From Clavelina lepadiformis (lineage: Eukaryota > Chordata > Ascidiacea > Aplousobranchia > Clavelinidae): DNA of 64,000 nucleotides. Location of the stretch: positions 13,933,856-13,997,855 of the forward strand of contig NC_135246.1 of NCBI RefSeq assembly GCF_947623445.1, given 5' to 3'. Shown here piece by piece: positions 4,887-63,600 of this stretch. The position numbers were made by a program, and so were the translations under genes. The notes under the pieces are model-generated. The model was not told the DNA's origin. It did no database searches and worked only from the letters and a program-made list of their open reading frames with translations. Position 1 is the first letter of the stretch. Each line of letters begins with the position of its first letter.

Positions 4887-7800
4887 ATGGAGCTTACAGT
4901 AAATCCGACCATAGATGGTATTATCGCCGCAACCGATAGCTTGGAAAGTAATCTTGTCACCAACGCCACGCCAGTGAATGGTCCAAACCCTGAGATCGTT
5001 TCTTTTCGGTGGGTTTAAAATCCATGTACATGTTCAACTTATTTATTTATTTTTACTGTTTTAAACTTATTCAAATGATTTTATACTATAGACTGGCAGA
5101 ATTTTGCTTTGTTAACGTTTATAACATGAATTTAGGACAAATTCGTGTCGTGGTTCGTAAATGTTGGTTATGATGGTGCTCTTACACGATGATATATAGT
5201 TTCACGTATATTTGAAATCAACACACAGCACCATTACGCACGTCACCTTGACTATCATCATGATGCTATCTTTTTAACGACTTGCTCAGAATTTTGTTTT
5301 GAAATTCGGTCTCAATGACTACCGACATTGATGGATATGTACATATGGTTATTTAAAAAGACACTTTATGTGCCGCACAACACACAGAACACAAGCGCGT
5401 TCACGGTAACTTGATCCAATCAAAGATAGGGAACATTTTCTTCAATTGGTAATTACACTCATAAGTAGACTGCTTGCGTTCGTCTCCTAAAAAAGCGATA
5501 AACAACATTTTTAAGCACAAACTCCTTGTGACGTAAACCTTAATCGTGTTGTTGTCAAGGGTCGATCACCTTTAGATTTTTGTTAAAGTCTCTTTATACA
5601 TGGCAAATAATTTGTTTTATTATTTCAGCTATTTTGGAATCGTTGTGGCCGTTTATGCTATTGTTGTTGGCAGTATCGGAAACTTGTTGACAATTCTTGC
5701 TTTTTTTTCCAATCGTAAACTGAGAACCACATTCAACGTTTTCGTCGTCAATCTCAGTGTGGTTGATTTCTTGACCGCATCTGCTATGCTTCCATTCAAT
5801 TTGGCTGGTTACGTACAAATGCAGTGGTAAGTGTAATAGAGCAACCTTGAATACCTTATAGCTGTATACCTGTATAGCTATATGAAACTGAGGGGAAATC
5901 AGTAAATAAAAACTCTTTCCTGCTGCCATAGAAACCCAGCGGTTAAAAACTAGTAGGTAAAACCGGCTTACGGTGCCAGTGCGACACAATGGGTTTAATA
6001 TAGAATGTGCTATGCGTATCAGTAGCTAGTAGCTACACTAAATACGCAAGGTTTGCATTACGAATAATGCAGACGGACTTTCATGTATCTCTATGTATCA
6101 CCGAACAACAATCGCTCTTAAGCTTTCCATTCGAACTACTGTATATAGCCGGAAGTTTTGATGCAATATCTCCCTCCATAATACCTCGTCGCTATACCTT
6201 CTTCGGGATTTCAATATACCTAGTGTATAGCCGATCGCTATTTTTGGTCCGCAATAACATTTTGCTTAACATTATAGAAGTTTCCTCATACCTATATTGT
6301 AATCACCGCCTACACATGACATGAGCTTTAAATCAATTAGTTAGATTGTTCGTTGTTTCTAAGCACGGAAACTGTTTTATGCTTCGTTTTCAATTTTGGT
6401 GTTTTGTTTTATTTCCAAGAACACGCTTTACGAGTTTACGTTCTTTATCAAGACATATCATACGAAACTTAAATATCATTTCCGTTTTCTTTTTCGTTTT
6501 TTTTATCAACATACACTTCAGAAGAGGTTATCTAAATTCTGAAGTGTAAGAAAGCAACACCATAACTGTTAAGCATATTTAAAGTTTATATTGAATCCAA
6601 AAAACATCTTAAAACTTGATTCTGTACTTAAATAATTAAGGATTTATGATCGATTTGGCAATTTAAGATTTAGACCTTCTTGCCCTTTTGACAAAACTTA
6701 TTGATTTTCAATGAGGCCTTTGTCTTCGCTTCTTACTTCATTTCTCATTTTCCCGAGGGAATATAGTTCATGGGGTATATAAGTCACTAATTTTATCATC
6801 ATCGACTGGTTAGCTGAATTAGTAATGTAATGGCGCCACCACGAAATTAAAATGGAAAGTTGTTGTAATTGTCCTGTCATTTTCGTTATACAGTATGTAC
6901 GACAACGTACGGATGTATACTGTGTTCATAAGATCCCCTTTAATGATCTATGAGTATATACCATGCTATTATATCGGGTATTGACGTATTAAATTTAAAC
7001 CCGCAAAGAAGTAGGTAATATATATGTTTTAATTAGACTCCTGGTTGCGTTGCGCATTAATATTTCAATTGTTCGATAAATATTTATGTTTTCAGGCCGT
7101 TTGGAAACAGCTCGTTCACAACCAGACTGCAGGCTTTTTTCTATTTCTGCTGTGGTTACACTTCTGTCGTTTTCTTGGTGGCAATTACAATAAACAGATT
7201 CATTGGCGTTTTCCAACCAACACGCTACGAGGAACTGTTTAAGCAGGAAAGGTAACCTTTTTGAAACTGCTTTGCAGTCAAATATTATCAGCAACACACT
7301 TTTAAGATGGACATTTCGACTTTGCTGTTTGTTCTACTTCTTACTTCTTCCCATTTCTCTAATTGTTATATCAAAAGGAGTTTGCTATTCGCTTGAATGT
7401 TTCTGTTAACCTATAGCCCAAGCCTAATATTAAGTATAGGATTTCACATGGTATTGAACAAGCAGGGCATTCTCTGTGTAGATTGGTGCTTACGATGGTG
7501 GTTTGTTGGACTTTTGCTCCAATCTGCCTCTTACCGTTTCTTGTTGGGACTGATTCCTCATGCTCGAGCCCAGGTCAAGCGCTGACAGGGTATCACGCCG
7601 GCCAATTTCTTTGCACCTTTGTTTGCTTGCCTAAAATAGGCTGGTACCCTTACATGCAGGTGAGGGGATTTGGGCTTATTTTGTTGAAAATAAGTTATCA
7701 TTTAGTTAACAAACTTTGTTTAAACACAACAAATTTTGTGTTACAGTTTACCCGGGTTGTATTTCAATTTCTACCGCTTGGTGTCATGATACTCGCGTAT

Positions 7801-9544
7801 GGATCGATTTTCTACAAGCTGCGCAATAAAGCCGAGCAGCTAATTAGGACCCGTACGATGAGCCTACAATCCACTCAAAGCACTTCACTATCTGTCAACG
7901 GTGAACTTAACCCAGCCCTGATAAAGGTGAGTAAAGCACAATACCGTACGTTGCAGGTTGCGGGCTTTGTTTATATGTGAATGCGGATCAGTAGCCATGT
8001 TGTTCAAAAATATTCAGAAAAATATTTTAGCCCCAACTAAACGAAGCAACAAAGCTCCATAAAAATATCAGTAAAACAGGGAAAATAATAATACCGTTGG
8101 TAACGTTGTTGCAGAAAGACAAACCTGGAAGTGTCAAGATGCGTGCCATGATGCAAAGAAGAGCGAGCAACACAGACATGAAGTAAGAAATGCAATTGCT
8201 TTGTCATAGCAGGTCTTATTGTTTTGGCATTTAGAGTAGAAATAGTCAACAATGTCTCGTAATCTACGGCTAAACATATAAGGAAAGTTGCGTGCATTAA
8301 GCTGTAAACATGTGTGTTGAGTATTCTTAGAATAACCTCTCACTACACAAATAATTAATTGCATAAGATTTTGCTTGAGGTCACGATTTAAGCTCATGTT
8401 AGCAGGTGTAAGTAATTTTAATAGCAAAAAAAAAAAAAACACAAAGCAAGATCACACTTTGAAAAGTGTATGTAGGGCCACGTCTGTATATTATGTTTTT
8501 CTATAGTGTAATATAGACCTACGTTTCTTGTTATTTGGTTGTGGCACCCGAACCCTTGCTGTATTTGTTGATACGGTAACGCCTTTATACGGGGCGGGAA
8601 GAGTTTTGACTTAGTTTTTGCTGACATGATTCTATACAAATTTTTTCCGGACATTGTAAAAACGGTATTTCCTGATTAATGACTCACGGTTATAGTGAGT
8701 TGAACAATAATCGGAAGTGACTGGTGTGCCCCAGAATCATGCAATGCCTTAATTGATCCTTTGCTATGAAAAATTATGTCACAGTACTTGTTTCCGTCAG
8801 CATCAAGCTTTAATTTTTACGTGAAATATACTCTTTACAAGTCTTTGTGCAAAGTATGTTCATAAATTTACCAATTTACTGGTTTTTGCAGGAGAAACAA
8901 AGAAAACAAAAGAATGCTACTGATTAGCGTAGCCATTTGTGTGGGATTTATGGTCACCTTCTTGCCGAGTGTCATCATTAACTTAATCCCCGGAAGGTAA
9001 GTTAATTATTGTGAGGGAAAAGGGAAACAGTGCAGTTTATCTTCTTCATATAACATGACGCTAGAACATTACCGTTTACGACTTGACATGTAGCCTTTTG
9101 GCGGAAGCTGTAATCGTTATTTGAGTCCCCTCACATTGCAAAACTTCCCCAAAAGCAAGTTTTTGCAAGTAACCAAGATTTTTTCCTGAAAAAGGCGTTG
9201 TTTACGATGCATCACTAAATGACTTTTTCTTTTGCGTTAGCGGTAAATTCGATCCCCGTTTGCATATGATGGCTTCCAATCTTTCATGGTTCAACAGCTC
9301 GATAAACCCGGTTATCTATGTCATCTTAAACCGTCGCTTCCGAAAAGAGTATATCCGTCTGATTAAGATGGGTTTTGGCAGAGTTAAAGGATCGTTTGTA
9401 CACGAAAGTACTTCAGCAGTTCATCAACGCCAAGTCAGCAACGGGAAGAGTCCAAAGAAAGAAAAATCCTGCAGCAACTACAGTTCTTCCGTTGCTGTGA
9501 ATGAAAACCTGATGATCCAGGACAAAGAGCCCACTTGTGTTTAA
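4887..9544 (+). CDS. Rhodopsin-class (class A) GPCR, melatonin/moody-Tre1/GPR84-like
   Basis: This is a seven-transmembrane receptor expected at the plasma membrane; its ligand is unknown. Eight exons join in phase: 4887-5008, 5629-5826, 7096-7251, 7482-7659, 7747-7926, 8115-8182, 8892-8996 and 9241-9544, giving 436 residues. The extracellular N-terminus has an NAT glycosylation site. TM1 and TM2 (about 42-66 and 79-105) contain GSIGNLL and LSVVDFLTASAMLP. TM3 ends INRF (139-142) where most receptors have DRY. TM4 follows at about 163-180, TM5 at 225-245, TM6 at 312-333, and TM7 ends NPVIY (358-362). An in-frame ATG at 4848 would add 13 residues. The usual TM3 cysteine is absent: residues 111-118 contain none. 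The NRF/NRY-type motif and NPxIY place it near melatonin, moody/Tre1 or GPR84-like receptors; finer assignment is not possible by eye. Confidence 0.88.
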
Positions 9545-17695: not shown

Positions 17696-18865
17696 TTAAG
17701 ATGATGTTGTTCGTGGGCATTTTTCAAGAACAAATGAACCTAACAGTGGAATATTTCCATCGGCATCAGTTTCAAGTTTATTTATTTGTTCTATCTGCTT
17801 CAGTTCAATGTGCCTCGGTAGAAATGAAGGAGTTTCAACTGGAGGCAACTTTCTCTTCCTTGAGTTTGCTATGGTAGATGAGCAGGTACTTCCATTTTTT
17901 ATCTCTGTATTTGTCGTCTGAGGTACACTCAAGGCATGCATAACTTTTTGATAAAAGTATCCACTTTTTGCCTTCAATTTTGGTTTAGAATTTAATGCAG
18001 TGCTTTGTTTTGCAGCACTTCGTAAGGGCACAGCAAGTGAATCACTTCTATTTGTTGAACATTTGTGTTTAATTGCACCATGCACATTATGTATTTTATT
18101 CTTGAACCTTGGCTGATGCAGTGTTTGTGGTGTACGGTAAAAGTACAATTGAGGTGGTGGAGGCGGGGGTAAAAATAATGGTACACCAAGGGCGTTAGTT
18201 GGAATTGAGCCAATGTTACAGGAATGTGTAGGAGGATAATGTGAATTTATTGAACGAGAATTGTTGTTTAGTGTGTTTTTAGTCTGTATTTCAGATGCAG
18301 GTTTGCTTGTTGTAATCTTTGCCCTGTCATGGGCTGTTATATTATTTTTTGTTTTTGTGCTGGCTGACTGACGTTTGCCTGATTGTTTTGAATTTTTTTC
18401 AGCTACCTGCCGCTTAAGAAATTTAACTCTAGAAATAACTGATTGTCTTCGGTGGAGAATTTTCTCACGAGTGTCGTCAACTGTCTCATATTCAGGAGCA
18501 TAAAAGACGTGGAGCATGGCACCAAAAAAATAACGTTCATCAATTTTCTTTTTAGCACATTTTGCTGCTTGTATTTCTTTGAACTGTAGCAAATAAACTT
18601 GAGTGAATTCTTCTTTAGGGTAGTCTTTTATTTCACTGCACTGCACCACTGTACCAAATGTATTAAAGAGATTGATCAATTCTTTCTGAAGACCAGTAGC
18701 AGGAAGTCCATTCACCACTAAGTATTTGGATTCAAGGTTTACTGTGAACACTCTTACTGAAGTCTTCTTTTTCCCTCTACGATACCTGGGTCTTGTTTCG
18801 CAATAATCATATTTGATGTGATGAAGGGGTAGGTCTACAACATTATCGGTCTCCTCATCCATCAT
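17696..18865 (-). CDS. RBM48: RNA-binding protein 48 (minor spliceosome factor)
   Basis: The vertebrate homologue works with ARMC7 in the U12-dependent spliceosome, contacting the capped U6atac snRNA. This is a single uninterrupted exon of 389 codons. The N-terminal third is typical of the family: RPRYRRGKKK, VFTVNLESKYLVVNGLPATG (RRM strand 1 region, about residues 39-58), then FTQVYLLQF, a strand holding RRM core aromatics, and FFGAMLHVFYAPEYETVDDT. The last of these is close to FFGGLLHVCYAPEFETVEET of the human protein. The C-terminal half is low-complexity, with a run of six prolines near residue 235 and many Lys/Ser. Two Met codons stand in tandem at the start. CCDC83 follows on the same strand after about 230 bp. 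An intronless gene could be an old retrocopy, but the frame is intact. Confidence 0.93.
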   Translation of the reverse strand: MMDEETDNVVDLPLHHIKYDYCETRPRYRRGKKKTSVRVFTVNLESKYLVVNGLPATGLQKELINLFNTFGTVVQCSEIKDYPKEEFTQVYLLQFKEIQAAKCAKKKIDERYFFGAMLHVFYAPEYETVDDTREKILHRRQSVISRVKFLKRQVAEKNSKQSGKRQSASTKTKNNITAHDRAKITTSKPASEIQTKNTLNNNSRSINSHYPPTHSCNIGSIPTNALGVPLFLPPPPPPQLYFYRTPQTLHQPRFKNKIHNVHGAIKHKCSTNRSDSLAVPLRSAAKQSTALNSKPKLKAKSGYFYQKVMHALSVPQTTNTEIKNGSTCSSTIANSRKRKLPPVETPSFLPRHIELKQIEQINKLETDADGNIPLLGSFVLEKCPRTTSS

Positions 18866-45597: not shown

Positions 45598-48500
45598 ATG
45601 AACGTGTGGATTACTTTCTTTAACGAGTAAGCCTTACATTTACTGTGGAGAATATTACAGTTGTTGTAATCATTTCTGTGAAACCTGAAATTTGTTGTTC
45701 AAGTAAAATTTCAAGTTCGTTGTTTGACTGTTTTCTGATTTTGCTACAGTGCTGCTGTACCTCTTGTAACCTTAGCTGTGGTGCTTATTACTTCTACTAT
45801 CTTTTTGAGAAAATGTCTCCGCAAAGGTAAGCCAACGCAGCAAAAACTTGCAACTTTTTTTTTGTGATGTTTCGATTTTGGCCTGGTGAGACATTCATTT
45901 ACACGGCGTATATGCATTATCCTGTTTTAGGAAAGAAAATGGAAGAATTCTCGAAGAAGCCTCAAAAGGTAAAGGAAAAAGGCGTATGTAGACAGCGTGA
46001 TCTGTTTTGCTCCTAAACAAACTAAATGTGCAATAAAATCATTCACTTTTTATAGGCGATACAGGCTGAGGAAGTTGATGGGCCAATTCGTTCAACAGAT
46101 AAGTCTCATATCATGATAAGTTATAACTGGCAGGCTTCTCACAGACTGGCAAAGAAGGTGACCAAATATAACATTTTTCTGAGAAAACCTTGCATGAACT
46201 GTTCGCTCCATTGGCGTACGCAACTAACTACAGTAGGCCTACTTTTTACAAGTGAAGTGCCAGAGGTGGGCAGTCGGTACTTTGAAAGTACCGTCGGTAA
46301 CGGTACCGGTACTTGGCAAAAACTGTACCGACGGTTCCGGTATTCGGTACTATTTTAAAAGAGTAGTTCGATACTTTGTCCGTACTCGGTACCGGTACTT
46401 TTTGTGTAAAAGATGCTGCTGCAAATGCAATGTTTGCAGCAATTATGTCCTCGGTAAAGGTTTTATGTAACGTTAATCGCTTGCAATTTTACTTGACATT
46501 TCTAGATTAAAAAAGATCAACAAATGGTAAATTTAGTATTAAGGATTAATTACCATGTATTTTTGAAAACATACTTGTTAAAAGTTTGAAATTATCACGT
46601 GAAAAGTACCGAGTACCGGGACCGATTGAAATTTCTTGAAAAAAGTAATTCTGTACAGAGAATCGGTACTTTTTTTGAAAAGTACCGACGGTACCGGTAT
46701 CGGTACTGAAAAAGTAACGCTGTACAGTAATTCGGTACTATAGCACCGCGGTACTGCCCACCTATGTTAAGTGCCAACGAAAAAAAGGAGTTTTTTTAAC
46801 CCCAAAACAGTCCCTTTTCGTACGCCAACTTTTACCTTCAATAGTGTTTTACTCATCAGCATCACTAACAAGTTTTAACGGATTTTGTAGGTGTACGACA
46901 GATTACAGGAAAAAGATTATAATGTTTGGTTTGACCAAGGAAACTTGAAAGGCGCTCTTTATGAAAAGATGCAGGAAGCTGTTGACAATGCCTTCGTTAT
47001 TTTAATGTTCGTGTCAAAAAATTATGAAAACAGTGCTAACTGCAGACGAGAAGCTTTTTATGCCGCCGATATCAAGAAACCTATCATACCAATCCATGAA
47101 GACTATGAGCCACAGGGGAAACCAAAAGGAGTCCGTAAGTGTCCTTGGTTTCATTCTACAGTGAAAATAAGCTTAAAGGAAGATATGTGATATTAAGAAA
47201 TAAACAAAAAGATGTATAAAGTAGTAGGATTTGGGCTCAAACAGTGATAACAGGAATGCTATATGTTTCTAGGCCTTATCACAGCAGGTGAAATATACTA
47301 CAAATTCAACAATGACAATTTTGACGAAAATTTTGAAGAACTATGCAAAGGAATAAGTAAGTGCTAGCTGTAGGTAATGCACTTTGGGCTTTACAAATCT
47401 TTTAGAACGAATGTAAACATCAGAGGATGCCAGTAAAACATTTATTTAATTTTAGACGAAAAGATGTCGAAAAAGGAAATTTCCCCAAAAGAAAAAGCGA
47501 GTATGGTCTGGGTTTTTATTTTACATTCATAGACGTTAATAGGATTTGTTATAGATAGGCAATATGGTGACTTACATCTAAACACCAGCAAAGTAAATCG
47601 TCTCGGGTTTTGCATATTTAAAATTCCACTTTATTTTGGGCGTTAAGCGAGAAATTTAAATAAATTTGTGTATTAGCAAAGATTGCCTGGGTAAAACTTT
47701 ACAGTACAGTAAAATGTAGCGCATACTACTGTGTAGCTTTAGGTTTAGGCCAGCTCTGTCATTTTATACTGGATTGTTTATTATTTGTCATTGCTTGTGG
47801 GTAAACGAAAAATAAAATGCTAACCATTATAGCGTGATAAAATGACAAGTCCACCATTTTCTCTACCAGTCTATCGTGATCTGTGCTCAAGAGAGCAGAG
47901 TTAGACGATTGTTGTCACATACATTTGCAATCGCATAAAACTTTTGTCTAAATTATATTGACAGTGCGCGATTGGAGAATATTAATGCTTGGCGGACAAC
48001 CGAATGCTAGGAATGTTGTAGAAATATTCAACCTTAACGAAACTGAAACTGCAACTTATAAGGTAAAGTCATTTATACTTGCTTCCGCAAAACGGATTTA
48101 TGATTTATAGTTTGTAATACGGCGATAAAAAACAAATTCAAGTAACCATAAAATCGTTGTTTTTTGTCTGCAGAGTATACCCGAGAACCAAGGTATGAAA
48201 GCGGCTTGTTCAATTTTACTGAATCGTTGTGTTTACTTCATCGGCGGCTGCGAAATCAACAAGTTTGTAATGAAATCAAGCAAAGGCGTCCGTGTTCTTA
48301 ACTTGAAAGAAAAGAAGCCTGATTGGGCGAATGCTGAGAGCATGAACGAGGAACGGTGCTTCATGGGAGCTGCTGTGTTAAGAGGTGAGTCACGTAAGAA
48401 ATTAAAAGTTATAATTAACCGCACCAGCATCAGTATATTGTACAGTAAATTGTCAACGCAACGCGCGGCAAGGTCGGTATTAAAGGTATAACCACCAAAT

Positions 48501-49664
48501 TCTTTGAAAGGTAAGATATACGTTGTTGGTGGATCAAACGGTAAAAAGGTGCTTTCATCTGGGGAAAGTTTTGATCCAGACGACGAAAAATGGACCAACA
48601 TGCCAGACATGAAACAACCAAGAAGAGAACATCAGATAGTTGCTTGTAAAGGTGTGATGTGTTTATCGGGCAGTTATTACAGGGCAACTCTTAACTCGGT
48701 GTGCTTTGGTATCATTTCACCTGATAATGTTATCATACTTTTTCTATAAAAACGAAAGGAAATGGACTTAGCCAAACCTTGCATCAGAAAATGTGATTAT
48801 ACAGTTGTAACTGTCTTAAGAAATAACCGCATCTTAGTCTTTTTGCTATGTGTAGCTTCACATTTCACATAATCCAGAAGGAAAATAACAGACGTTTTTA
48901 TTAATGCGTATTATAGGTAATCTGTATGCATTGGGAGGTCGAACTGATTCTTATGAGGATCCAATTTCTACCGTTGAAAGACTAAATCTTTTCAACGAAA
49001 CTAACAAATGGGAAATGTTTGACTGCCCTGGCAATTTACCTCGAAATCTATTTGCAGCTGTTGGTGTTAACGACGAGATATATGTGATAGGTGGGCCGAC
49101 CGCAGTCATGCCTGACAGAGCATATGTTTACAAAACGTGTTATTTAACTTATAACACTGCTGTTCTAATTTTGCACTCCAAAGTTAACACAGTTTTGATG
49201 TATTATATATAGGAGGATACAGCACTAACGGCAAACTATTAAAATCGGTGAAAAAATGCAAAGTCTCTGAAGAGACACCTGCCTGGAAAGAAGTTGATTC
49301 CCTGGAAAAAGAACGGGGTGAATGCTCTGCATGTGTCATCGAAAACAAGATCTATGTCTTTGGAGGGTAGGTTGTCTCACTTTCAGTATCATGTTTTAAA
49401 AGATTGTTTTTAGCAAAATACATTTGAAATATTTTGAAGTTATGTCTGCATCATGCATTAATTAACGACGTGACGTCCGTAGCGGAAGTTTGCACATATA
49501 CTTTAATGCTTAATTCGTGTATAACAAGGCGAGACAGCAACGGCAAGACCGTGGATTCAATCGAGCGCTACAACACTGAGGATGAGAAACCGAGATGGCA
49601 GAAGGTTGGAAACATTCCTCAGGAAGCAATGCGTTCCCGATTGCATGCCGCTGTGGTGGTTTAA
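45598..49664 (+). CDS. Membrane-anchored TIR-Kelch protein
   Basis: Thirteen exons join in phase: 45598-45626, 45750-45826, 45931-45968, 46056-46157, 46891-47134, 47273-47356, 47456-47500, 47965-48062, 48174-48384, 48511-48651, 48917-49090, 49213-49366 and 49529-49664. They encode 510 residues. A nine-residue N-terminus precedes one hydrophobic helix (about 11-29, AAVPLVTLAVVLITSTIFL) and a Lys/Arg cluster, so the rest should face the cytosol. The TIR domain (about 64-192) starts HIMISYNW and has YNVWFDQ; SKNYENSANCRRE places Glu136 where SARM1-type NADases have their catalytic Glu. Residues 207-510 hold six Kelch blades (LMLGG, YFIGG, YVVGG, YALGG, YVIGG, YVFGG), a full propeller. TIR domains act in immune signalling or NAD cleavage and Kelch propellers bind proteins, so a sensor or adaptor is plausible. 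I know of no characterised protein with this order. Confidence 0.88.
46261..46766. mobile_element. hAT-type MITE inside the TIR-Kelch gene
   Basis: The element lies in the intron between exons 4 and 5 of the TIR-Kelch gene. It starts cagaggtgggcagtcggtac and ends gcggtactgcccacctatg, giving imperfect terminal inverted repeats. The flanks tgaagtgc (46253-46260) and ttaagtgc (46767-46774) are an 8-bp target duplication with one mismatch, typical of hAT. Both arms are built of many ggtaccggtact-like units in alternating orientation, so the RNA would fold strongly. It has no transposase. Confidence 0.85.
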
Positions 49665-51334
49665 TGCGTCGTTCTACTCTTCAACGATGAGCAATGAACA
49701 CGTCGTCATCTTGGCTGGGTCATTCATTCATTCAACCGTCTCGCACTTCAAACAACATTTTCTTTTTGATTTTATATAATCTCGATGCAGTGATACTTAA
49801 GATTCCAAAAAAGTTGTGAACCCCACTTTCATGTTGCAATGTGTACTAGCAGGTTCCTGTACACTGACACAGTATATCAATACGCTACCGTGAGTTTTAG
49901 TTAAGCATAGCAATACTGTCCAGAAGAAATTAATTGAAGCCTTTTTGAACAAATTTCGGTGACTTTTTTTATTGGTGTCAACGCTCGTTTCCACCAGTAC
50001 AAATTGTGTCTCTTGGCTGCGTTTAAACCGGCCTTCGCTCTCCTAAACTAGTAACTCAACTTTTGCTGGTTATCCGCATGTCAAGAAAACGTTTAACTGT
50101 ATTTGTGGACAAGACATCATTTCAGGCGCGGTAGCAGCTAAGGTACTACAAGACACAAACGACTATTGCACAAGATTTAAAGGACAGAACAAAAAATATA
50201 CTCAAAAAAACTTGGGGTAATTATAACAGACGTCCATGGGCTTACACTGAAACCACACAACCCAATTTACATGTCAGTAGCGTGACCACGAAATAAAACG
50301 TACAAGTGATGTTTCATAAAACCCTTATACTAATCTTGGTAGCTTGTAATAAACGAGGATTCGTCTAACTTTTACACGTTTTGCTGAATTAAGTCAAAGT
50401 TGCAAAGGTTAAAACCACAACTTTAATGATAGTTTGTTTTCAGTCTATAATAACATTATGGAAATAAAATATTCATGAGAAAAACACAACCTTGTTTCTC
50501 ACTTAGCAGTACAGCACCGGTACCGGAATGATCCTGGTTACTGTTAAAGGTCATGTTGGTTGTACGCGTAACAACGGTGAGGTATATGCGACAATAATTG
50601 CTACTTCTACGAAAATATAATGGCAGAAGATGCAAGTCAAAGTATAACGAGTTAAAAGTCTATCACTAGGAGCAAGAAGTTTAAACAATACCCAGTTTGT
50701 TCACAATAATTCGTTTCTTGGATAGGAGCGAGTAACATTGCTTGATGTAACTGCTACTGTTTGGTCGTACTGGTTTTAATCAATAAATCTGCCGCTGGAC
50801 ATGAGGAAAACCATTGTACAAACAGAAATAGATCTGGTCAAAAGAAATTTGATTAAATACGCAAGCCTGAGCCAATGACGTATATTGATAAGAGCAAATA
50901 CAATCAATAAACGCCACAACATATTCTTGGAAAGTCTGTTATTAGCTCCGCTGTTTCAGAAAGTTATGGTTGTGATTTACAACCAATATCTGAAACATTC
51001 AACAGAAGTACGCCAATATTGTATAAACGTGTCCCAACACAGAAGCCTACTGCATTATTCAAACCGTTAAAGATTGATTTTGTGTTAATGTAAGAACCTT
51101 GCCACAATGACATTTGGGCAGTCTATTTTTACATATCACATGAAAGAGGTTAGGGATTCAAAGCCATTTGGACCTGCCTAACAGACAGTGGAAAATATTT
51201 TTTACAAGAAATGTCTCTTAAACATGAATTCAAAATATTTGTAATGCAAATCTTAAAAGATAACTAACAGTGTGTAATTGTCAATAACACAAAGTGTTTT
51301 GTAACTTGCAAGAACATGGCTTCCCATAGCAAAA
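49665..51334. other. Intergenic DNA between the TIR-Kelch gene and VTI1A
   Basis: The two genes converge here, so this is shared 3' flank. No AATAAA lies close to the TIR-Kelch stop; a plus-strand AATAAA occurs only around 50463. I see no coding frame of note, repeat or RNA gene. Confidence 0.45.
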
Positions 51335-53172
51335 TCACGACTTATTATTAGTTACAGTGAAGTATATGGCAATGATAATAACGATGACCATAAAAGCAAT
51401 GATGGCAAACATAAGCAGGCGGTGTTGGATTATCCTGCAAAAATATAAAAGCAATTCAACCTAGTTGTAAATCAGCACACAAAGATTAAAAATGCAAATA
51501 TATCATCATACCTTCGAGTCATACTGGATAAAATCCGGGAACTTTTTCCGAGATTAGCGTCACCTTCTTTTAACTAAAATTATTTCTCAAATTTATTATT
51601 GATCTTAGCAATGTATAGTTAATACAATTGAGTAACACACATGTAACAAATACAGGCAAAATAAATTAGTCGATTGACACACAATACCAATGGTATGCAT
51701 AAAAGGTCAAACAAAGCAGAACGTTTCCATAATGTATGAAAAATCTCACTCACTCTTTGTCTGGTTCTTGTGATAGTTTCCCTGTCTTTATGCAGGTTAT
51801 CAAGAATGTCCTGACCAATTCTTTCTGTCTCTGTGGCCACCTTGTAGCCTACTTCCAGTCGGCGAGTACAGTTTTCCAGCTTTTCTGAGTTATCTAAAAG
51901 CCTAGCCCGCTACAAAACAAAAGTTGTTTAGATATCAGTAAAATTATTAATTAGCATTACAATCGGTGTGTGCAATAAACAAAAATATGACACCAGGAAA
52001 CACGGTTCCATGCAGTTAAACAATCTGCTCATTTAAGTCATTTAAACAGACAATATTATAATACAAATAATTATTTGCAAATGTTGTCCATGTGCATATG
52101 CAATGAGAAACTTTAACAGGTATAATTATGTCACAAGTAATGAGTAAAAGACAGGAAAGAGCACACAGATGACCTTACTTGATCATCAGTGTCTCCATCA
52201 TCTATTCCTAATAATTCTTCTCTCATCTTATTTGAATTGTTTATCGAAGCAGTCTTGGCTCTCCTCTATATAATTTAAGTTATGAAATAAAATTAATAAC
52301 ATATTAGAAGAAAAAATTATTGTTTTATGTAAAACAGTGTAAAAGCAATAAAGAAAAACACATGTTTAACTATATTATAAGCATTAAAATTTTTATTTTT
52401 GCAATAAAACAAGCTGGCAGAAAACTTTTACGCAGTAAACAAACATATAAAGTCACTGTATATGCTGTATCGTTATTTTCTACTCAACCTACACATACAA
52501 GCAGATAAAAATGTTTTTACTTACTATTTGTGATTCCAAGTTATTAAATTCAGTCTGGTAACTTTTCATCCTTCCCATGATTTTGCCTCTTTCTGAGATT
52601 GGTAATTCCCTTACTTCTAGATCCATTTGTTCAAGCTAAGTTTTGAAAAAGAGCAAAAATAGACAGGATGACACAGTGACACTTAAAAATGAATAAAATA
52701 TTACAAACAATCTCTAAGTAGAGCCAGTAACACAAATCAAGACCATCCATTTTAAGTACCAATAGGCAATTAGGTACCAAAAAAATGAAGTACCAGTTCT
52801 TGAGCTTCATCTAGTTGTCTTTCAACTGAACTAACAAAGGACTTTTTATCAGCTGCAAAATACGATGATGCTTCGTTATAACAATGTTACCATGGTGCTC
52901 ATGAGTTATGCATATGATTAAAGCTAATTTATTTGTCAGGAATAAGCTTGTAGTTAGATTTTTTACATTGTAACCGATTATAGGGTTATTTCTTTTGTCA
53001 CTAATTAATCAGAAAAAGATGGTATGCTCATTAATTGAAATATAAATAGTTAAGCAAACAATAATGAATATATCTCACCTCCATGGTGATTGGGAATTAA
53101 TCCCACCCGCTGTGTTATTTCAGCAGTCAATGATGAAAATTGCTGCTCATATGAGGTGAAAAGTGACGCCAT
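51335..53172 (-). CDS. VTI1A: VTI1A-type Qb-SNARE
   Basis: This is a tail-anchored SNARE of the trans-Golgi network and endosomes that pairs with syntaxins and R-SNAREs in vesicle fusion. Seven exons join in phase: 53079-53172, 52794-52852, 52525-52635, 52179-52265, 51754-51909, 51512-51573 and 51335-51434, giving 222 residues (human about 217). The N-terminal Habc region contains YEQQFSSLTAEI and VERQLDEAQELLEQMDLEVR. The linker has REELLGIDD. The SNARE helix runs from RARLLDNSEKLENCTRRLEV through ATETERIGQDILDNL to DANLGKSSRIL. A single C-terminal helix (LLMFAIIAFMVIVIIAIYF) follows. VTI1A fits better than VTI1B because of ETERIGQ, GDANLGKSSRIL and RRIIQHR. For the sixth exon I chose the acceptor at 51574 because it restores the family spacing RQRLKEGDANLG. 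Confidence 0.93.
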
Positions 53173-60602: not shown

Positions 60603-63600
60603 ATGTATCTGTCCTTTTATGCACTGAAAAGATCTGTTGCATTGATCGCAATATGTTGGAGTCTCGTATTATTCGCAATGCATCGTCGCTTGCTGACGCA
60701 ACACAATGAGAGGGAGCAGTTGGAGGTAAGTCATTGGCAGCTGTTTCCAGGTTTTGCATTTAGTGGAAACGCAGACATTGGACAGGCACTTCAGTGACTA
60801 AAAGATATGCACGTAGTCCATGTGCTATTGAATACATAAATATACTATTGTACCAAAGCTATCCAAGAGCCGTTCTGAAATCAAAATCGACTAATCAATG
60901 CTTTGATAGGTACGCTCCTTAGCTGGAGGCCTCATGCACATTTCCTGTGGAAAAAACGAGATTATCTTGAGAGACCGGCATTGCATCAAGCGAGTAAAGT
61001 GGGTGGCAGAAAATTGGCAATCCCACGGATGCTTTTCCTTCTACGGTGTTAATTCCACAGAAACAGGTAATCACTGCAACACAACATTTTGGCAAGTAAT
61101 TCATGACACCTTTAGCATTGCGACGGTACAACCTTAACTCAAAATAATGCAATGACTTTTAGCAATCCATCGCGAGCCACCATGAACGGTACGATGGATT
61201 TTATCACTGAAATTACCCCGGGATAAGAATGTATTCCCAGTTTAGGCTAGTTTTAGTTTTAAACAATTTACTTTGTTTAGATCTCGTTTGCTCGGTTTAC
61301 CGCTACTTGGTCTACGTTGAACGTGCATGTCCAAGTCCTAACGAACCGGACACTTTCTTTTCCAATGTTTTACCGTCGCCAAAGGCCGCAAAACAGCATC
61401 TTCAACTGGCTGAAGTCAGAAACGACCTGACGTCGTTGATAAGCAAGCTGGAGGAATGCGGATCGGTATACATGGTGTTAGCTAATGGTACTGTATGAGG
61501 TTAAATATGCTTGGTGTTTACATTGGTGAAGATAATTTCATAATTTAGGTTTGCAAGTGGATTGGCGATAGAGTGAAAGCAATGGTACCAAGTTGGACAG
61601 ACACCAGCAAAACTGTCTCTAAAATGATGTCCTTGGGAGCAACGGAGCAGAACATAAGAGAAGATTTAATAACAAACAAAACTGACTGGTTTAACCCTAA
61701 CGAAGCCAAAGATTTTATCGGGGTCGGTACCCCCAGGATAAAACTCACAATACTTCTGCATATGGGGCTTTTAACAAAAGCCTATGGATTAAACTTCGGT
61801 GAAGCGGCATGGGTCGGGGGTCCGTTAGGGGAGCTTGTTCAGTGGTCTGATTTGATGGCGGCTCTACATATTCTGGGGCATGACATCATACTTTCGTGGT
61901 CTCCTGAAAGATTAAAAGAGATCGTTTCTCCCCATAGGAACAGATTTGATACTTGCAAACCATCGAAAGCAGTTGATTTGATCTTTACAGACATTACCGG
62001 CATTGAACAGGTAAGCGCCTAGCTAAATGATTAAGCTGTGATACGAGTGTAATCAGGTCGATTTGAGAACTAATTCCCTCACTTTTTACAAGCCAATGCC
62101 ATGTTCATATTGCCAGAGAAATAGTGATGTGTTTAGATTCGTGAAGCGCTTGGGACACTATTCCACTACAGATGTCTTCTCAGAGTATTAGACGTTTATG
62201 GCACCGATCCGGAGTACAACCACCCAAAATTTAATCCTGATAAAGCGAATCCTGCTGCTCGAACGTGGGGAAGTAAGTCGTTACGACAAATGTATTAGAA
62301 AACAGCATTTCTCCTTCGCTGTACTTCGAGAGTTACTCCAAAGTTTCCTTTTCAAAGGTAAAGGTTTAAACCCTGCTCAGTTCTTCACTCACTTTCCACA
62401 TTCGCCCGATAACTCGTTCATGGGATTCGTTGTGAACGCAGATAACGATGGTCCATCTGTCTCAGTAGAAACCGACAGGTATCTACTGTCGTCAAGATAT
62501 TTATAAAAATCATTTGAAGTGTTCAAGTTTGTTGTATAGATGAGAAGCAAAATCGTACTCTTGTTTTCTAGCAAATCTATCGCACTTCTTTACGGAAAAC
62601 GCACAGAGATTCTAGATGGAGGAGCGAAACTGAAATACATCGACAAAATCTACAAATATTTCGATGAGATGCACGCCACCATGTGGAGGAAAGATAAAGG
62701 GGCAAGTAAAAGACGTTGAACCAACATTAAACATCTCCCAAAACAGATATCTATAATTACTGTGTACTTAAAGGATGAATATGACGTCATTCCTAATTAC
62801 GTCATCAACCACAAAAACATGGAACAGTCGGCATTTCTAGACCTGCTCGATAAAGCGTCGGTCTATGTTGGCGTTGGTACCCCAGTGGAAGGTCCCGCAG
62901 CTCTGGAGGCGATCGCTAAAGGTGTCGTCTTCCTAAACCCTAAGTTTAACCCTCCTCGACATGTGACCCAAGGAAAGCCCACAGCTCGTACCTTGACCTC
63001 TCAAAACCCATATGCTGAGAACCGTATAGGTGTGTAGATTACATCACAACATTGATTGTGTACATCGCGGTATTGTGTGAGACTTTAACATTTATAATTA
63101 ACTTTTATATATAAATTTGGAAATACCCGTATCTTATCAAAGCACTTCACAATTATTAAGCAAAAATAAACAGCAATTATCTTACGTTAACAGGCAAGCC
63201 ACACGTATACACGATTAACATTCGCAACCTCACAGACATTGAGGTGGCACTTAAAAAGATAAAAGAATCTCCTCGGCCTAAGCCATACGTGCCCCATGAA
63301 TTTACAAGACTGGGATTTCTAGAAGTAAGCTAAACATGCATTACATACTAGGAAGAAAGTTGTGACAAATGTTTCCGCTCAATTTTAAATTAGTACACTT
63401 ATGAAAATAGTCACTTGTTTCTGCAGAGAGTAAATGCTTACATAGAAAACCAAGACTTTTGCAGTGAAACACTCAGGACCCACTCGCAAAACGCAAAAGT
63501 TATATGGATAGCAGAAAAGAAACGATGGCCGCCAAAATCATCACTACAGGTAAATACTTTAACATATAAAATTCCAAACCTGGTGTTATACTAAGCTGGC

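Follow-up and report, generated by a model that had tools for sequence, protein, structure and literature searches.

TIR-Kelch genes in the ascidian Clavelina lepadiformis: gene structure, a family with a tandem array and a candidate recognition propeller

One of the questions raised by a locus in the ascidian Clavelina lepadiformis is why a TIR domain should be combined with a Kelch propeller in a single protein. What would a propeller of the kind carried by KLHL proteins offer a TIR domain, and how would the two have come together? The gene concerned, here called the TIR-Kelch gene, lies in a stretch of 64,000 nucleotides that was analysed as a whole (the window; NCBI RefSeq assembly GCF_947623445.1, contig NC_135246.1, C7:13933856-13997855 in the 209-Mb assembly), and positions are those of the window unless a contig (C3 to C9) is named. 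The answer that we favour, with a probability of about 0.6, is that the BTB-BACK part of a KLHL-type gene has given way to a TIR cassette. A diversified recognition propeller would then be coupled to a TIR output that probably cleaves nicotinamide adenine dinucleotide (NAD), the window gene being a dispersed member of the family.

Structure of the TIR-Kelch gene

The exons were re-derived from the DNA by splice-site reading (Table 1). All 12 introns are of the GT-AG type and a single open frame runs to a TAA at 49664, encoding a product of 510 amino acids, which bears out the 13 exons, single 510-residue frame and in-phase introns of the initial annotation. A spliced aligner fed with the protein returns the same exons, minus the three-base stop on the last one, which is a check of the script and not independent evidence. 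Two other junctions were tried and ruled out: an end of exon 10 at 48708, because the Kelch repeat is broken there, whereas 48651 restores it, and an intron-7 donor at GTCTGG, which brings the frame to a stop, whereas GTATGG preserves phase 1. Homologues back the TIR exons and the Kelch exons, with exons 1-3 placed by splice signals alone.

Pfam finds both halves that had been named from the letters, a TIR_2 match at residues 67-188 (E 6.7e-19) being followed by Kelch-type matches that span residues 211-509 (Kelch_1, E 3e-41). No BTB, BACK, NACHT or NB-ARC match is returned by Pfam for the 510-residue product, nor is any leucine-rich repeat (LRR) or death domain listed for it, and a genome search for BACK, in which 150 of 227 candidates were scored, has none near C7:13.98 Mb among the 135 matches listed. 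Double-glycine motifs fall at residues 216, 263, 316, 363, 415 and 465, and the propeller opens with a bB-like strand (RILMLGG) and ends with a bA-like strand (LHAAVVV), ends that compare with the closure of the Keap1 propeller by its C-terminal strand as described in the available part of PMC4668279. Read from the sequence, these are the six double-glycine repeats and the closing C-terminal strand of a six-bladed Kelch domain, exactly the number of blades first proposed. Also intact, as had been claimed, is Glu136, which sits in NCRRE. The structure makes a convincing case that the window holds a real gene joining a TIR domain to a six-bladed Kelch propeller.

Could the two halves nevertheless be adjoining genes, the first with TIR alone and an end in intron 7, the second with Kelch? 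Reading on from exon 7 meets a stop at 47532, and polyadenylation-type signals lie inside intron 7, of a form (AATAAA/ATTAAA) from which a TIR-only transcript could arise. The frame and phase run on across this intron, however, and the first in-frame ATG of exon 8 is within blade I, such that a Kelch-only product would be short of part of that blade unless other exons contributed. The same pairing, in the same order, is found at independent loci (L033 on C4, L045 on C7 and an array on C5), and because TIR then Kelch recurs in this way the pairing is above chance. Two separate genes are for these reasons the most improbable of the alternatives considered here.

Ahead of the TIR domain, exons 1-3 encode a 19-residue hydrophobic stretch with a mean hydropathy of 2.35, and because basic residues follow it the TIR and Kelch domains would lie in the cytosol. 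In the window copy the helix may tether the protein to the membrane with both domains cytosolic, and a start at Met39 would yield a soluble TIR-Kelch form. The initial annotation spoke of a membrane-anchored protein, and a hydrophobic helix is indeed seen, in exon 2, but the tether is no more than possible: exons 1-3 are given by splice signal only, and a genome search with residues 6-40, which revealed no homologue, matches their own gene alone. A scan of the 1.1-3.0 kb upstream of each TIR for a hydrophobic exon with splice signals found none at 14 paralogous loci, the same scan recovering the window helix and flagging a candidate in two of 28 control pieces, each of 3 kb. When splice signals were not required, five weak candidates appeared, two at L045 and one each at L036, L046 and L047. 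Comparing the regions ahead of the TIRs all against all for conserved hydrophobic exons was uninformative, because the array introns are conserved too.

Family members and the propeller face

Is the gene a one-off fusion, or does it have relatives? The genome was searched with the TIR half and the Kelch half separately, which gave at least 74 TIR and at least 98 Kelch matches, both counts taking in the exons of the window itself and the Kelch count also ordinary KLHL genes. Spliced alignment gives TIR then Kelch at L033 (C4:20.91 Mb), where it reaches the end of the protein, at L045 (C7:9.01 Mb), where it reaches into blade VI, and at seven stretches of the C5 array, one extending into blade VI, one into blade V and the remaining five ending earlier, near the limit of the DNA read or of the exons found. 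Within this array (C5:22.48-24.33 Mb) each of the 18 TIR exons has a same-strand Kelch exon 3.0-12.9 kb downstream, whereas over 5000 trials with randomly placed TIR exons the number so followed averaged 5.3 and never rose above 14. The window gene is no one-off fusion: it belongs, as a dispersed member, to a family made up of TIR-Kelch and BTB-BACK-Kelch genes.

The make-up of the array emerges from Kelch exon 9, whose homologues number 61 in the genome and 49 inside the array. The exon upstream of these 49 copies is BACK in 27, TIR in 18 and neither in four (37, 19 and five, respectively, for all 61), a copy with both TIR and BACK within 15 kb being counted under the nearer TIR. As the BACK scoring covers 150 of the 227 candidates, the class with neither may hide missed BACK exons; BTB was read beside BACK at L051 only, the array copies being labelled by their BACK exon. 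Along the array the order of TIR and BACK falls into 33 runs versus 22.6 expected, a number equalled or exceeded in 15 of 20000 shuffles (P 0.0008; 45 labelled copies, the four with neither left out), and BACK-linked and TIR-linked copies are intermixed, with modest support, in a short tree built on exon 9 nucleotides. Labelled in this way, the array is a mixture of BTB-BACK-Kelch genes, of the Cul3-adaptor type, with TIR-Kelch genes, alternating above chance.

Where, then, do the propellers differ from one another? Variability was measured on 27 array-type copies of exon 9 (28 were read and the divergent L045 was left out) of the 61 genome matches. The scaffold is near constant, and variation is found in the residues after the conserved arginine and in the loop after the double glycine, which changes in length as well as in sequence. 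The ratio of non-synonymous to synonymous substitution rates (dN/dS) is 1.86 over 10 face columns (5-95% range of 60 half-samples, 1.53-2.32) versus 0.33 over the other 51 columns, and reaches 2.86 over the three columns without indels that lie at the conserved arginine or directly follow it. None of 20000 random column sets attained the non-synonymous divergence (pN) of the face, a figure that is descriptive only because the face columns were fixed after the alignment had been inspected. Split by partner, face dN/dS is 1.70 in BACK-linked (n=19) and 2.07 in TIR-linked copies (n=8), and that of the TIR exon is 0.32 (nine array genes, one with a stop). Exon 8 provides a weaker sign, two columns after the double glycine having three and five kinds of residue among seven array copies and the other columns one to four.

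The known structure of Keap1 provides a guide to what these positions represent. Its substrate face consists of the DA and BC loops, and the double glycine ends strand bB (available part of PMC4668279), the BC loop therefore coming after the double glycine. The Keap1 contact residues Ser363/Arg380, Ser508/Tyr525 and Ser555/Tyr572 are 17 apart in each pair (available parts of PMC6891428 and PMC4668279). In the model of L034 the first variable residue after the arginine and the next residue after a double glycine are likewise 17 apart. We take the Keap1 contact residues to be the post-Arg and post-Gly-Gly residues. Greatest variation at the face by which partners are usually gripped suggests that the array propellers belong to an uncharacterised kind of innate immune receptor. 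The earlier idea that the propeller is the recognition part of the protein gains support at the level of the family, from the hypervariable ligand face of the array copies, but the measurement concerns array paralogs and not the window gene itself.

Alternatively, the hypervariability could be artefactual, produced by gene conversion and relaxed constraint as the array decays. Near-identical duplicates and occasional stops are seen in the tandem array, and synonymous divergence (dS) is raised in the loop columns. Decay of this kind sits poorly with change that gathers on the ligand face and leaves the remainder of the exon at 0.33, and with the failure of random column sets, descriptive as that comparison is, to match the face; we consider it quite improbable. 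The diversity could also serve turnover by the ubiquitin system, with KLHL adaptors evolving fast against invaders and the TIR-Kelch genes acting as decoys or regulators that have no output of their own. BACK-linked copies outnumber TIR-linked ones (37 versus 19 of 61) and are themselves hypervariable (1.70), and stop codons occur in two array TIR exons, yet the array TIR exon is under purifying constraint (0.32, n=9) and its glutamate is kept at each TIR locus read. This explanation is unlikely, if less so than decay.

The TIR domain and the origin of the fusion

What output would such a TIR domain provide? A TIR profile built from ten spliced TIRs matches, among solved chains, Cat1 (8.6e-6), RPS4 (1.2e-4), a bacterial Sefir domain (2.0e-4), SARM1 (8.5e-4), a bacterial TIR protein (1.3e-3) and TLR1 (0.076). 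The CxxE glutamate is kept at 20 of the 20 TIR loci read, and the cysteine at 19. This glutamate aligns with that of the RPS4 stretch VRE, which we presume to be catalytic, and occupies the place at helix C that marks a NAD-cleaving TIR. From these likenesses the TIR domain is likely to cleave NAD. Among bacterial and archaeal contigs the TIR exon alignment had 34 pattern matches, none of them a relative, and an AlphaFold model of the TIR exon-5 fragment alone (81 residues, 13 sequences) has a predicted local distance difference test score (pLDDT) of 64.5 and was not used for a fold search.

The TIR domains of Toll-like receptors (TLRs) and of MyD88 act by TIR-TIR recruitment, and the domain described here could similarly be a signalling adaptor without enzyme activity, in which case the propeller would still recognise a target. 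Besides this precedent, the profile for the TLR/MyD88 type, PF01582, scores the 510-residue product just below its cut-off (19.8 versus 21.3 bits), and SEFIR-type matches arise both among the solved chains and in PADLOC, where the best match is bSEFIR (1.4e-9) and Aga and ThsB-like matches also appear, as a lead only. Pfam, however, assigns the domain to TIR_2, Cat1 is the best solved chain with RPS4 and SARM1 next among TIRs and the TLRs weaker, and a glutamate stands at the CxxE position at all 20 loci. A purely adaptor role is a serious alternative, if still an unlikely one.

How might the TIR have reached the propeller? One BTB-BACK-Kelch gene with introns, L051 on C9 (BTB 1e-8 and 1.3e-9, BACK 1.2e-9 and 4.1e-8), has a BACK/Kelch intron that is in phase 1 and lies, by hand reading, two codons from the phase-1 TIR/Kelch intron of the window gene. 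In a propeller tree L051 and L033 form a pair (support 99), and a wider group of this pair and the window's propeller excludes both the array type and six single-exon KLHL genes (99). By hand count, the window gene, L033 and L045 agree in the phases of their last four propeller introns (1, 1, 1 and 2), and the intron preceding them is in phase 0 in the window gene and L033 and in phase 2 in L045. The place of the phase-1 intron, the grouping of the propellers and the shared phases fit a probable swap, at the phase-1 intron before the propeller, of the BTB-BACK of a KLHL-type gene for a three-exon TIR cassette.

The cassette is also found with other partners, and 16 of the 17 spliced models share its exon breaks (for L048 no first exon was recovered). 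It is followed by NACHT at L048 (PF05729, 2.1e-19), by fibrinogen_C at L049 (1.4e-9, 1.2e-9 and 1.1e-12) and, assigned by similarity to L049, at L050, by Ras-like small-GTPase exons at L044 (C3:23.15 Mb; 3.8e-7), and by LRR-like exons, named by eye and with no Pfam match, at L046 and L052. On C4 below 4 Mb there are 29 TIR and 53 NACHT exons, and 26 of these TIR exons are followed on their own strand, 1.5-5.9 kb further on, by a NACHT exon; C4:0.7-3.5 Mb (L046-L048) reads as a large TIR-NACHT gene array. Three TIR-fibrinogen_C genes lie at C6:19.12-19.14 Mb (L049 and L050), with a topology that is puzzling because fibrinogen_C is usually extracellular, and at L044 long open frames of another kind separate the TIR cassette from the Ras-like exons. 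Several TIR matches (L003-L008 and other places) fall within open frames of about 1000 residues, and because L004 reads as LRR, hydrophobic stretch and TIR in that order, single-exon Toll-like receptors may be expanded as well. Single-exon Kelch open frames of about 560 residues are clustered at C6:1.2-3.8 Mb and C8:17.66 Mb, BACK-matching among the matches listed and with some near-identical copies.

The TIR-Kelch gene of the window is a singleton and its neighbours look ordinary (Table 1). Positions 46270-46760, in intron 4, appear by eye to be rich in GTACCG-type repeats on both strands, with a similar motif near 50510, and this stretch is perhaps a mobile or satellite element. Genome-wide searches for Glyco_hydro_6 and for COX1 returned nothing; the former had no match in any control genome either and is uninformative, and the latter says no more than that COX1 was not seen in the assembly.

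Table 1. Features of the window and the basis on which each was placed.
Feature	Position	Strand	Basis or remark
TIR-Kelch coding span, 13 exons, 510 aa	45598..49664	+	splice-site reading, Pfam
Exons 1-2: putative start and single hydrophobic helix, then basic residues (N-out/C-in by charge)	45598-45626, 45750-45826	+	hydropathy 2.35; tentative
Exon 3: juxtamembrane, in-frame ATG (Met39)	45931-45968	+	splice reading; soluble form from Met39 presumed
Exons 4-6: TIR domain, three-exon cassette	46056-46157, 46891-47134, 47273-47356	+	splice reading, Pfam
Codon of Glu136 (CxxE), presumed catalytic Glu	47050-47052	+	conservation at 20/20 loci; alignment with Glu of RPS4 VRE
Exon 7: linker, phase-1 intron next	47456-47500	+	splice reading
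Intron 7: phase 1, TIR/Kelch boundary; AATAAA/ATTAAA-type signals at 47659 and 47811	47501..47964	+	splice reading
Exons 8-13: complete six-bladed Kelch propeller	47965-48062, 48174-48384, 48511-48651, 48917-49090, 49213-49366, 49529-49664	+	splice reading, Pfam
Weak rhodopsin-type receptor, below cut-off	7417-9544	+	neighbour
RRM protein	17696-18865	-	neighbour
V-SNARE C-terminal domain	51619-51909	-	neighbour
Glycosyltransferase family 18	61549-62022	+	neighbour

Known systems and biological meaning

How do these genes relate to systems that are already known? The six-bladed Kelch is held in common with the KLHL (BTB-BACK-Kelch) Cul3 adaptors such as Keap1, KLHL20 and KLHL12, and the best solved matches, besides designed propellers, are KLHL12 for the window propeller and KLHL20 for an array-type query. 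An intron-bearing BTB-BACK-Kelch relative, L051, is present in the same genome, but the window gene has TIR in place of BTB-BACK and the array copies are hypervariable at the ligand face. Profile similarity and the CxxE glutamate are shared with the enzymatic TIR proteins (SARM1, plant RPS4, CRISPR-associated Cat1, bacterial AbTIR and Thoeris ThsB), whereas the window TIR is fused to Kelch, without ARM/SAM, NB-ARC/LRR or bacterial partner domains. Plant TIR-NB-LRR receptors join a TIR output to a fast-diversifying recognition part and are alike in this respect, although TIR-Kelch is without a nucleotide-binding domain and it is the Kelch itself that is diversified. The MATH-BTB and F-box adaptors of nematodes are tandem ubiquitin-adaptor genes with selection at the substrate-binding part; here, by contrast, the scaffold is Kelch and an alternating TIR version is added.

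Closer precedents were sought in the literature. In plants, Kelch_1 appears among the domains fused to NLRs, in four species (available text of PMC4759884). TIR-NACHT has been reported in amphioxus, where the TIR domain is shuffled with many partners, and a table row for Ciona intestinalis reads 4 and 49, taken as TIR and NACHT proteins; the word Kelch does not occur in the available text of this paper (PMC2575513). TIR is thus joined to many domains in amphioxus as it is here, where a TIR-NACHT array is also found. In sponges, Kelch genes and immunoglobulin-TIR receptors are named separately (available text of PMC6208332). The initial annotation knew of no described protein with this order of domains, and no TIR-Kelch protein turned up in the titles and abstract openings of the papers listed from the mostly open-access literature searched (TIR-Kelch; tunicate or ascidian TIR or Kelch families; hypervariable Kelch; fast-evolving adaptors), most subscription journals and bioRxiv lying outside it.

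On the favoured account, the propeller would recognise a partner through its BC and DA loops, and the C5 array, in which a variable face goes with a conserved scaffold and a conserved TIR, would resemble a recognition-receptor repertoire. Binding of a pathogen, allogeneic or modified-self protein by the propeller would gather TIR domains, which would probably cleave NAD and so bring about signalling or cell death, and the BTB-BACK neighbours, with the same kind of variable propeller, would pass their bound targets on to Cul3 ubiquitin ligases. As a singleton among ordinary genes, the window gene would perhaps be a relative with a fixed ligand.

Several observations weigh against this account. 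Two of the 18 array TIR exons contain a TAG. The face columns were chosen after inspection of the alignment, and dS is also higher in them (0.44 versus 0.17), from which it follows that misaligned loop columns or gene conversion may inflate the dN/dS signal. The selection estimate comes from a single Kelch exon in paralogs of the array type, and the window propeller represents a second, divergent lineage. In a TIR tree the window TIR does not group with the other Kelch-linked TIRs, and more than one fusion event or a later exchange of TIR is therefore possible. Finally, with bSEFIR the best match in PADLOC and the Sefir domain above SARM1 among the solved chains, the assignment as a NADase is tentative.

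A broader proposal, which we advance tentatively and rate a little short of even, is that these genes form an immune repertoire not previously described in animals, with dozens of genes in tandem, a hypervariable Kelch face akin to the complementarity-determining regions of antibodies, two alternating outputs (ubiquitin ligase recruitment through BTB-BACK and an enzyme in the form of TIR), and dispersed singletons, such as the window gene, that are possibly membrane-tethered. Animals without antibodies diversify recognition through leucine-rich repeats, immunoglobulin domains or fibrinogen domains. If the proposal is true, these scaffolds would be joined by another, the Kelch propeller with a diversified ligand face, and the alternation of TIR and BTB-BACK in one array would show a single binding module wired to two responses. 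What triggers the TIR domain would become testable too, with the propeller usable as a bait for the ligand and the glutamate as a report on NAD cleavage.

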